This document shows positions 61,610-63,949 of a DNA stretch of 64,000 nt, piece by piece. The notes beneath the pieces are model-generated. The model was not told where the DNA came from, searched no databases, and worked only from the letters and a program-made list of their open reading frames with translations. Both the position numbers and the translations under genes were made by a program. Source of the DNA: Promicromonospora thailandica (lineage in GTDB: Bacteria > Actinomycetota > Actinomycetes > Actinomycetales > Cellulomonadaceae); the NCBI RefSeq assembly GCF_024171955.1, contig NZ_JAMTCS010000004.1:248001-312000 (forward strand). Reading direction: 5' to 3'. Position 1 is the first letter of the stretch, and every line of letters begins with the position of its first letter.

Positions 61610-62794
61610 TCAGACCTCACCCGCCTGGGCGAGCAGCGCGTGCCGGTTGGCGCGGACGAAGGCCTTGAGGGCGGAGGGCACCAGGTCGACGTCCGCGAGT
61701 GCCCGCTCGTCGTGCAGGTCGACGTGCTCGACGTCGTAGGTGCCCCGCACGGGCTCCTCGAACTCGGGGCCCGAGCGCAGCGTCAGGTCCAGGGAGACGA
61801 GCCGCGCCACGAAGTAGTGGCTCACGGCCACCCCGGCGTCCTTGGGCTGGGAGGTGAGGAACACCTGCCGGCCGATCTTCGCGGTCGCGCCGAGCTCCTC
61901 GCGCAGCTCGCGGTGCAGCCCGTCCTCGATCGAGGGGTCGCCCGGCTCGACGGTGCCGCCGGGCGTCACCCAGTACGGGGCGCGGCCGGGGACGGTCCGC
62001 TTGAGGAGCACGAGGCGGCCGTCGTCGTCGATCAGGAGGGCCCGGGCGCCCTGCCGCACCACGACGGGCGGCACGGCGGCGGGGACGTCGTCGACGACGG
62101 GCGCCTGGCGCAGGTAGCCCTCGAAGAACGGTCCGCCGGCGGCGTCGAGGGTCGCGCGGGCGACGTCGACCATGGCCTGGTCGTCGTACCGGGCGGTGAC
62201 CCAGCGGGCCGCGAAGCCGGGGTCCCAGGCGCGCAGCTCGCGCAGCAGCCACTTGCCGCCACCGTCCCACCTTCCCGCGGCGGCCAGGGCCAGGTGCCCG
62301 ACGCGCTCCCAGAGCATGGACCGCACCACGTCGGCCTCGCCGATGTCGCGCGCGTAGGCCAGGTCGTCGAGCAGGTCGGTCACCCCGTACCGCGCGTCCT
62401 CCAGCACGGTCTCGGACGCCGGACCCGGGCCGGTCTCGACCAGCTCGCGGCACTCGGCCTGGAGCTCGGTGACCAGCGCGGCTTCGCCCGCGACGGGCAT
62501 GCCGGTGGCGATCATCCGGGCCAGGGTCGGCTTGCGGCGAGCGGTCTCGTTGGCGATGAACCAGCGGTGGCCCGCCTCGGTGTTGACGAACAGCTCCACG
62601 GGCCAGCCGCGCCAGCGGACGGCGTCGCGGTGGCCCACGGCGTCGTCCGGCACGCACACCACGATGTCCAGGTCGGAGCCCGCCGTGCGCGCTCCCGGGT
62701 CGATCACGCTGCCGGCCAGCAGCGCCCACCGGGCCTCGGGATAACGGCCGGCGATCAGGGCGGCAGCATCAGCGACGGGGTCCACGGCGGCCAT
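61610..62794 (-). CDS. Nucleotidyltransferase-Nudix hydrolase fusion
   Basis: 394 residues, two enzymes in one chain. Residues 1-130 are a DNA-polymerase-beta-like nucleotidyltransferase: LLAGSVIDPGARTAGSDLDI gives the GS motif (27-28) and the two aspartates (40, 42), with a third acid in WPVELFVN (E66). Residues 130-225 are helical, as in kanamycin-type nucleotidyltransferases. Residues 240-394 are a Nudix domain with the box GGTVEPGDPSIEDGLHREL continuing to REELGAT (about 277-299), one residue longer than the consensus spacing. ATG 62794 has only a weak ribosome site (GGCAGG). The promoter must lie in or near the repeat array upstream. Substrates unknown. Confidence 0.87.
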   Translation of the reverse strand: MAAVDPVADAAALIAGRYPEARWALLAGSVIDPGARTAGSDLDIVVCVPDDAVGHRDAVRWRGWPVELFVNTEAGHRWFIANETARRKPTLARMIATGMPVAGEAALVTELQAECRELVETGPGPASETVLEDARYGVTDLLDDLAYARDIGEADVVRSMLWERVGHLALAAAGRWDGGGKWLLRELRAWDPGFAARWVTARYDDQAMVDVARATLDAAGGPFFEGYLRQAPVVDDVPAAVPPVVVRQGARALLIDDDGRLVLLKRTVPGRAPYWVTPGGTVEPGDPSIEDGLHRELREELGATAKIGRQVFLTSQPKDAGVAVSHYFVARLVSLDLTLRSGPEFEEPVRGTYDVEHVDLHDERALADVDLVPSALKAFVRANRHALLAQAGEV

Positions 62795-62863
62795 CCTGCC
62801 CCAGCGCCGCCCGGAAACCCATTCCCCTGGTGAACCCGGGTCGGCGCGCGGTGCCGCCCGGGT
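62795..62863. other. Leader between the repeat array and the NTase-Nudix gene
   Basis: About 70 nt of GC-rich sequence with no gene, between the first array unit and the ATG. No consensus promoter is visible here. If the array contains the promoter, this is the 5' untranslated region. Confidence 0.4.
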
Positions 62864-63439
62864 GAGATCTGGTGCCGCGACGCCCGACGAGGGTGGCGAC
62901 CCCGCCCAGATCTGGTGGTCCGGCGGCGGGTGGGACCCTCGCTCCGCCGACATCTGGTGTCGCGTCGCCGGCCGGGACGGCGGCCCCGCCGAGATCTGGT
63001 GCGGCATCGCCGTCCGACCCGGGCGCTCTGCCCAGATCTGGTGGTCCGGCGGCGAGATCTGGTGTTCACTCCGAGATCTGGTAGCGCACTGCAAGATCTC
63101 AGCGCGAACACCAGACCTCGCCACCAGGCCACCAGATCTCGGCGGCCACCAGATGCCGGGGGCAGGCCACCGGCACGGCGCGGCATGCGGCACGGCAGAA
63201 GCCAGTGGGCACTCATCCGGCTCACCGAGATCTGGTGTCCCGCCGGCGAGATCTGGAGTTGACGTCGAGATCTGGTAGCGCACCGCCAGATCTCAGCGCG
63301 AACACAAGATCTCGGCGGCGGGACACCAGATCTCAGCCGCCAGGCACCACATGTCAGCCGCGGGGGCCCAGATCTCGGCGCCGGACCACCAGATCTCAGC
63401 CGCCGGGCACCCCATGCCAGCCGGCGGGCACCAGATCTC
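62864..63439. repeat. Array of about 22 copies of an 11-mer (GAGATCTGGTG / CACCAGATCTC) at 21-bp spacing
   Basis: Units starting GAGATCTGG or its complement recur. Plus-oriented units begin at 62864, 62907, 62949, 62991, 63033, 63054, 63073, 63227, 63248, 63267. Minus-oriented units end at 63100, 63119, 63140, 63157, 63294, 63313, 63334, 63355, 63376, 63397, 63418, 63439. Spacings are 42 or 43, then 21, 19 and 21, so units fall on one DNA face. The core consists of two 108-bp imperfect palindromes, 63033-63140 and 63227-63334, each with 51-nt arms around a 6-nt centre and the same internal geometry. Flanking units extend the array. A seven-codon reading (HQISAAG-like) exists but is not part of a supported gene. 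Confidence 0.85.
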
Positions 63440-63454
63440 GGTGGGCGTCCCAGA

Positions 63455-63949
63455 TCAGCGGGGTGCGTCCGTCGTGCGGGTGCGCTCGTAGTGGCGGCGG
63501 GCCTTCATGCGGTTGCCGCACAGCGCCATCGAGCACCAGCGCGCCCGGTTCGGCTTGCTGTGGTCGACGAGGAACCGTGCGCACTCGGTGTTGGCGCACG
63601 GGCGCAGCCGCCCGGGGCTGGACCGGCGCACCTCGTCCCACGCCAGCACCGCGCGGACGGCGGGACGGCGCGCGTCGGGCACGTCGAGCTCCCACGTCAC
63701 GTCGTCGTCGGTCACGACCGGGCGGCGCCGGACGCCGTCGAGCAGCGGGGCGAGCGCCGTCAGCGGGGCCTCGGCCCGCGACAGTGCCTGGAGCACCTCG
63801 CGCGCCTCGGCCGTCGCGCGCAGCTCCGCGGGCGTGCCGGTGCCGCCGTGGGCGCGCAGCCAGTCGGCGTCGAGCTCGTCGCGCGCCGCGCCGTCGACCA
63901 CGGGCGTGCTGTTGAGCAGGTCGAGCAGGAATGTCTCGTCGGCTACCAC
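63455..63949 (-). CDS. CGNR zinc-finger (ABATE-domain) protein
   Basis: 164 residues. The C-terminal zinc finger is complete: RPCANTECARFLVDHSKPNR then RWCSMALCGNRMKARRHYER (C-x4-C ... C-x4-C with the CGNR turn). The N-terminal 110 residues resemble the ABATE domain (FLLDLLNSTPVVDG, ELRATAEAREVLQAL). Such proteins are thought to be stress-linked DNA-binding regulators. GTG 63949 follows GGAGG with 6-nt spacing; a TAACCT -10-like element lies at 63975-63980. Its stop is 15 nt from the last array unit, so its transcript would run into the array. Confidence 0.92.
   Translation of the reverse strand: MVADETFLLDLLNSTPVVDGAARDELDADWLRAHGGTGTPAELRATAEAREVLQALSRAEAPLTALAPLLDGVRRRPVVTDDDVTWELDVPDARRPAVRAVLAWDEVRRSSPGRLRPCANTECARFLVDHSKPNRARWCSMALCGNRMKARRHYERTRTTDAPR

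Follow-up and report, generated by a model that had tools for sequence, protein, structure and literature searches.

The window, as we call the whole 64,000-nucleotide stretch of the Promicromonospora thailandica genome analysed here, contains a dense array of short repeats between a gene for a CGNR zinc-finger protein and a gene for a NUDIX-domain protein (Table 1). The latter is called NTase-Nudix below; its N-terminal domain has no Pfam match, and the NTase assignment is a reading of the sequence. A previous sequence-only reading had described about 22 copies of an AGATCT-centred 11-mer, set in two palindromes. The array itself is confirmed. At up to two mismatches it has 20 units; the earlier figure of about 22 varies with how generously degenerate units are included. 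Both palindromes are present, and one repeats the other in direct orientation over 118 nt, with 84% identity, at a distance of 194 nt. The array fills the intergenic gap as described, from 16 bp behind the CGNR stop codon (63455) to about 70 bp before the NTase-Nudix start (62794). In order, its unit steps are 43, 42, 42, 42, 21, 19, 39, 21, 17, 77, 21, 19, 20, 19, 21, 21, 21, 21 and 42 bp. The previously named spacings of 21, 42 and 19 bp dominate, next to single steps of 17, 39 and 77 bp; the 39-bp step spans one unit too degenerate to be counted, and the 77-bp step separates the two palindromes. Allowing one mismatch, AGATCTGGTG matches 20 times in the whole window, 17 times inside the array, against an expectation of 1.87 ± 1.43 (0 of 100 shuffles reach 20).

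Table 1. Features of the array, its neighbouring genes and the cognate gene. Positions are those of the window unless a contig is given.
Feature	Position	Strand	Description
Whole array	62864..63439	.	20 units of GAGATCTGGTG at ≤2 mismatches; two convergent sets, plus units left, minus units right
Outer plus-oriented units	62864..63029	+	42/43-bp steps (four helical turns), running away from palindrome 1
Palindrome 1	63030..63143	.	55-nt arms 63030-63084/63089-63143, 82% complementary
Palindrome 1 core	63050-63123 (G000:C4:311050-311123)		74 nt; covariance model match
Palindrome 2	63227..63334	.	49-nt arms 63227-63275/63286-63334, 86% complementary
Palindrome 2 core	63244-63317 (G000:C4:311244-311317)		74 nt; covariance model match
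Outer minus-oriented units	63324..63439	-	21/42-bp steps, running away from palindrome 2
NUDIX-domain gene (NTase-Nudix)	61610..62794	-	Pfam NUDIX; upstream array only in this genome of the genus
CGNR zinc-finger gene	63455..63949	-	PF11706; array behind its stop codon, the family's usual position
Family-1 cognate gene	G000:C14:65005-65940		Inserted at the polA/methyltransferase gene junction; a palindrome of the window array's dialect on either side

Is this array unique to the junction at which it was found? The repeat unit of the family is GAGATCTGG. A two-unit pattern has 50 matches in the 5.38-Mb genome of P. thailandica, and the reversed control pattern has none. In the same 5.38 Mb AGATCTGGTG occurs in 112 copies; among the 100 listed, about ten stand single and the rest in arrays. 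The two-unit pattern is present in 4 of 58 other genomes searched, all four among the 12 of the same genus, and a contig scan of GTDB genomes yielded 26 stretches with the pattern, of which 24 are Promicromonospora (P. citrea, AC04, MEB111). The matches in Dokdonia and Planctomycetaceae were judged to be chance because they are isolated, and the one match in viral contigs also looks like chance. In the stretches fetched from the P. thailandica genome, 23 array sites were counted. A search for the units at their spacing across the genome and its relatives, as the sequence-only reading had proposed, finds the spacing conserved at these 23 sites and in four other species. The same grammar at all of them, with zero reversed-control matches, excludes a coding tandem repeat or a low-complexity artefact. 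The earlier judgement that the array is not CRISPR-like also holds: the units converge, the steps range from 17 to 77 bp, and there is no constant repeat with unique spacers.

The grammar is strict. Read from the centre outward, two convergent AGATCT starts lie 20 bp apart, and further units follow at 19 and then 21 bp. In P. thailandica, 47 of 48 first steps are 19 bp and 36 of 40 second steps are 21 bp; later outward steps (n=48) measure 32 bp in 8 cases and 42 bp in 16. The helical phasing of convergent units, initially proposed for the window array, recurs across the array sites (R 0.75–0.77 at periods of 10–10.5 bp), with a p of ~1e-12 that is too small, as some steps are local duplications. 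By its period, this phasing is that of double-stranded DNA, with the units on one face of the helix.

The arrays also mostly keep to a characteristic position behind stop codons. The 62 sites of five genomes comprise 27 with convergent neighbour genes, 28 with tandem and 5 with divergent ones, besides 2 at contig ends; the orientations come from a home-made codon-usage gene finder, and single ones may be wrong. The median distance to the neighbouring 3' end is 52 bp for family 2 (defined below) and its kin (32 loci) and 28 bp in other genera (18 loci), and the corresponding distances to the 5' end are 205 and 96 bp. These medians leave out sixteen duplicate, overlapping or contig-end loci as well as L149, in which no core was found, and still count two places twice (L097/L147, L102/L155). 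No neighbour gene is common to the arrays among 113 flanking proteins: the top Pfam family reaches at most 2 of 45 in a first set, and TetR_N reaches 4 of 68 in a second. Several sites are common to different species; others were gained or lost at the same junction (for example L035 vs L054). Of the options listed in the sequence-only reading, that of a mobile palindromic repeat is supported. Comparison by eye of the window site with the array-less P. citrea site gave no clear target-site duplication. The array-bracketed intervals L010, L035 and L038 were considered as cognate-gene loci and rejected, as they hold ordinary genes (ten proteins in or next to them). Two of them contain divergent gene pairs with arrays behind both 3' ends, resembling insulated modules (NmrA-like/TetR in L010, 4849-6889; DUF6640/TetR in L038, 4741-6235). 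In the draft genomes G008 and G010, some contigs break off at a palindrome or no more than about 200 bp away from one (L033, L037, L161), so that short-read assemblies may miss copies.

The two arms of a palindrome match each other more closely than they match those of other loci. In P. citrea the arm spacers agree at 8.1 of 10 positions within a locus and at 6.1 between loci (0 of 10000 permutations); the values are 7.0 vs 6.3 in P. thailandica (p 0.0009) and 6.4 vs 5.2 in AC04 (p 0.04), and the test is not significant in the other two genomes, which have 3 and 2 copies. Double changes across the arms of 57 cores fill 119 cells, compared to 64.5 ± 6.6 after shuffling. Between 32 same-family element pairs at corresponding places we count 40 compensated changes where 7.2 are expected (maximum 17), so that at the level of sequence compensatory change is evident. 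Paired elements lie within 350 bp of the corresponding place, and some are used more than once; the count excludes four cross-family pairs, of which three arose when a family-1 element whose unit had changed was labelled 2. Could an RNA hairpin be the selected object? In 24 tandem-gene cores, oriented by the upstream gene, G-U mismatches (46) and A-C mismatches (49) are equally frequent, suggesting that similarity of the arms is maintained at the level of DNA. We rejected the hairpin for want of a G-U excess, and Rfam returns only sub-threshold miRNA models. The spacer, alignment and G-U sets exclude L037, which is cut by a contig end; the alignment also excludes L055, and the G-U test both L053 and L055.

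A covariance model of the core matches all 13 genomes of the genus and, under stricter filters, 41 of 150 genomes of the taxonomic family, in 13 of 25 genera. Matches read outside the five family-1 species have different unit sequences. Family 2 is GACTTCGGTCSSTTGC..GAGATCGGTC, with an outer step of 30–31 bp, and its pattern has matches in 12 of the 13 genus genomes, including 6 weak ones in P. citrea and none in MEB111. The bare geometry GAGATC-N13-GAGATC-N16-GATCTC-N13-GATCTC, at up to 3 mismatches, is found in 11 of 396 genomes of the order and 7 of 110 genera, with no control match. The candidate cases of one site switching dialect (L034/L229, L019/L213, L044/L198) either occupy different junctions or are not established as a single site; the families thus coexist. 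Nor is there a common gene beside the other-dialect elements: the ten first candidates (an MPAB oxygenase, a kinase with a PUA domain and others) share no family except for three MPAB orthologues.

Which gene belongs to these palindromes? At the methyltransferase/polA junction of 3 of the 13 genus genomes (P. thailandica, P. citrea and AC04), a single gene has been inserted and lies between two family-1 palindromes. This locus is outside the window and was thus out of sight of the sequence-only reading. In 9 of the 13 genomes the methyltransferase gene and polA are 9–108 bp apart, and G002 has 644 bp of other DNA between them; G001 and, less clearly, G011 have one unit-like remnant at the junction. 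The family-1 cognate protein has 309–311 residues. A paralogue with 46–47% identity lies between two family-2 palindromes in G004 and G012 (L202/L203). At the junction represented by L268, L269 and L202/L203, G009 (L204) has one palindrome and no gene. This comparison looks like gene loss by recombination between the palindromes, a solo-LTR-like route to solo copies, or else like gene insertion. No AbiEii toxin gene is seen at the five loci read closely (L024/L041/L046, L202/L203), and the gene stands alone between its palindromes. A third cognate gene with a third dialect, its palindromes reading GAGGTCGGCTCGTTGTGG..., is present on contig C13 of P. thailandica (L299).

Copy numbers can be set beside the presence of these genes. 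The exact family-1 pattern has 50, 49 and 9 copies in the three genomes with the cognate gene at the polA site; the ten without a polA-site gene have 5, 2 and eight times zero. For family 2 the relation is less clean: its matches number 89 (G000, P. thailandica), 79 (G006), 54 (G003), 52 (G001), 46 (G012), 44 (G004) and 28 (G011) in genomes with a gene of that dialect, and 42 (G009), 38 (G005), 32 (G002), 16 (G010), 6 (G008) and 0 (G007) in those in which none was found. G072 has model matches and no cognate gene at E 1e-12. Because family-2 matches persist in G009, G005, G002 and G010, and model matches in G072, the gene is not needed for maintenance of the palindromes.

The pairing of gene and palindromes was first noticed at two loci and then tested on the remaining homologues. 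A profile built from five proteins was searched against 48 chosen genomes at E ≤1e-12, giving 123 matches and 43 genomes with the gene; palindrome carriers were over-represented in this choice, which also took in 13 genomes lacking model matches, and 9 of these 13 have the gene. From 41 genomes 90 gene loci were read, the remaining matches being second fragments or weaker than about 1e-36, and their flanks were searched for dyads blind to sequence, with a cut of 24 (also 22) of 33 pairs. At the higher cut 45 of the 90 homologues have a dyad on both sides and 59 on one side or both, as opposed to 4 of 117 distal control windows of the same loci; many of these homologues are orthologues and so not independent. 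At 22 pairs the figures rise to 52 and 69 of 90, and the controls give 9 of 540 for shuffled flanks and 0 of 12 for the stretches upstream of NTase-Nudix orthologues. Both-sided palindromes become rarer with falling profile score (28 of 35 above 300 bits, 9 of 20 at 200–300, 6 of 26 at 140–200, 2 of 9 below), and 25 of the 41 genomes have at least one both-flanked gene. No dyad of at least 22 pairs is present on either side in 21 of the 90 homologues, which are mostly distant and largely keep the nuclease signature described below. Among distant homologues of the genus without flanking palindromes, L346, L347, L349, L351, L352 and L353 are possibly ordinary AbiEi-like regulators or decayed copies.

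Do the two palindromes of one gene belong together? They agree at 58.3 of 66 sites, compared to 29.3 between genes (n=45), and in 37 of 45 cases the partner palindrome is the best match. Only the dyad was selected for, and still the first 10 nt recur at a shift of 19 with an identity of 0.76, as against 0.16–0.29 at eight other shifts. The median distance is 21 bp from the stop codon to the 3' palindrome and 196 bp from the 5' palindrome to the start. Protein and palindrome distances co-vary, with a Mantel r of 0.646 (0 of 2000 permutations) calculated without correction for phylogeny. Thirteen genomes have two or more both-flanked genes, and in every one the dialects differ, agreement being 49–66 of 66 within a gene and 12–46 between genes; G144 contains five both-flanked genes, each with its own dialect. 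Phages gave no tblastn match to the cognate protein and viral contigs no relatives; plasmids gave one distant match (Tsukamurella), with best flanking dyads of 17 of 33.

The N-terminal region of the protein is of the AbiEi type. PADLOC assigns two family-1 proteins with E values of 1.5e-12 and 3.6e-13, and the P. citrea family-1 protein matches Pfam AbiEi_1 above and AbiEi_4 below the cut-off; the other two of the three family-1 proteins have no Pfam match, and none of the three has an NCBIfam match. The record of one named homologue labels it an AbiEi family antitoxin domain protein. Among 42 members (the 45 both-flanked genes minus the partial L318, L343 and L348), Pfam at E ≤0.01 finds AbiEi_4 in 16, AbiEi_1 in 10, the restriction endonuclease (REase) MTES_1575 in 2 and DUF559 in 1. 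DUF559 was dropped as a general neighbour: its Pfam model, too narrow for the gene family, finds 0 proteins in P. thailandica and 1 in P. citrea. In the alignment of the 42 members the columns E, D, ExD and K of a PD-(D/E)XK signature of the Vsr type (E..D..ExD..K) are invariant or nearly so, and we infer from them a catalytic, presumably nuclease, role of the C-terminal part. The 42-member profile has no match among solved structures; a structure prediction with two sequences reached a pLDDT of 41 and was not used.

How does this arrangement relate to known repeat systems? REP/BIME elements and REPINs, with their Y1 HUH transposase RAYT, are described as family-specific, dispersed extragenic palindromes that form inverted pairs and undergo compensatory changes, the RAYT gene having its own repeats on either side and evolving in concert with them (PMC2817692, PMC3116915, as consulted in part). 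Like RAYT, the cognate gene described here is flanked by its own palindromes, which co-vary with it and are paralogue-specific, and like a REPIN each element is an inverted doublet with compensatory changes in its arms; here, however, each repeat is itself a dyad, so that its orientation has no meaning. Unlike RAYT, the gene product is AbiEi-like and PD-(D/E)XK-like, and unlike a REP the palindrome measures 66–74 nt, has two direct units per arm and carries phased outward units. The Y1 transposase domain (Y1_Tnp, PF01797) has 0 matches in the P. thailandica genome, and a RAYT partner was rejected there; 5 of 14 control genomes do match. On reading the alignment, no GT(A/G)G head of REP was seen in the 66–74-nt dyads of GAGATC-type units, whose flanks and centre are variable. 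Without the transposase in this genome, and without the head, the system works like REP/RAYT but is not one. CGTC-tagged REPs are reported, in the sections consulted of the source, to be palindromic and to have no associated transposase genes; stems are 5–13 bp in GTAG and 8–9 bp in CGTC REPs, with an unpaired tag at one end (PMC3733652), unlike the 33-pair dyad found here. The type IV AbiE system has AbiEi as its antitoxin, which binds inverted repeats of 11 bp within its own promoter, according to the part consulted of PMC3985639. The N-terminal region is of the same type and that repeat has the size of our unit, so that the N-terminal part may plausibly bind the units. Unlike AbiEi, the present proteins have a nuclease-like C-terminal half, their palindromes lie on both sides of the gene and are dispersed, and there is no AbiEii partner at the five loci. 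MTES_1575 is described as a Vsr-fold REase fused to HEPN and other domains, for which the consulted part of the source (PMC3710099) mentions no palindromic repeats; as given above, this model and DUF559 match two and one of the 42 members. Unlike a DNA uptake sequence, AGATCTGGTG occurs, among the 100 places listed, mostly in arrays and not as very many single copies. No description of the present gene-palindrome system was found in the literature searched; most subscription journals lay outside the search, so one could exist.

The sequence-only reading had taken the array, as the sole occupant of the gap, for the probable site of the NTase-Nudix promoter, and an upstream location would also suit an operator of that gene. 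The relatives do not support this proposal. In P. citrea the CGNR and NTase-Nudix genes have the same order, with 65 bp from stop to ATG and no unit, and the 840 nt upstream of NTase-Nudix in 12 other genus genomes (P. citrea included) contain no array, 0 or 1 unit-like match each, and best dyads of 17–20 of 33. Since the orthologue is present in 13 of 13 genomes and the array in none of the 12 others, the array is not the conserved promoter of the gene; a box resembling a promoter, immediately before the start, looks by eye to be common to the relatives. With the same family behind unrelated genes that share no frequent Pfam family, the operator is scarcely credible. Could local tandem duplication and template switching have built the palindromes without any trans-acting partner? 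Arrays do contain local duplicates of 42 and 31 bp, and the arms correct each other as quasi-palindrome correction would have them do; but such a partner is needed to explain both the same grammar at 23 sites of one genome, where the control gave no match, and the close association with a gene family, and we consider this origin very unlikely.

A stronger competitor, though still rather unlikely in our judgement, makes the palindromes non-mobile host elements that lie behind genes and act as bidirectional terminators or protein roadblocks, with the AbiEi-like protein as their dedicated binder and regulator. It would account for the position behind stop codons and for the sites common to several species, but not for gain and loss at the same junction, as seen at the window site, L035 vs L054 and the polA site. 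RNA of the window palindromes is predicted to fold very stably (z −10.5 to −12.2 in the four strand/palindrome cases), in keeping with a terminator; yet no intrinsic terminator of hairpin and U-tract was found in 62700–63600, and the equal G-U and A-C counts give no sign of selection on a sense RNA. Terminators, moreover, need no separate dialect for each paralogue.

We think it likely that the window array is a solo, non-autonomous and locally expanded copy of the dispersed palindromic family, whose cognate gene lies elsewhere in the genome; binding and nuclease action by the cognate protein may drive its spread. In the mechanism that we propose, the AbiEi-like N-terminal part would bind the roughly 10-bp units, two per arm at a 19-bp distance, in a symmetric complex; additional protein copies would extend from it along one face of the helix. 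The C-terminal PD-(D/E)XK (Vsr-type) domain would cut DNA, and repair would copy palindromes into gene 3' ends, so that they may spread as a homing- or REPIN-like element. With matching repeats beside dozens of related genes in relatives, this looks like a selfish or regulatory repeat system of a kind hitherto undescribed. A wider proposal, about which we are evenly divided, is a separate repeat class: palindromes built from 19-bp units in pairs, in which every family is generated and spread by a wHTH-Vsr endonuclease of its own instead of an HUH transposase, with protein and unit co-evolving. Such a class would comprise up to five dialect pairs per genome, constitute a library of DNA specificities and place protein-bound insulators at gene 3' ends. 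In the literature consulted, partly in extract, the HUH transposase RAYT is the only enzyme class tied to REP-type repeats. If our reading is true, an unrelated nuclease-like protein with the same pairing would mean that REP-like repeats arose more than once, and a second, independent enzyme would make their spread directly testable. The palindromes also provide AbiEi-annotated genes with a likely DNA target, and natural protein-site pairs for studies of recognition.

Some variants of the palindromes were seen at single loci. Two solo sites in G011 (L167, L102) have a centre that is asymmetric in the same way, with GAGAGC on one arm and GAGACC on the other; the palindromes next to the gene in that genome (L271) have GAGACC on both arms. 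In G021, a homologue (L333) is accompanied by a quite different palindrome motif, CGAAGTAGTACGGCCGCCGGTATACC, in near-perfect dyads on both sides (31 and 32 of 33 pairs).
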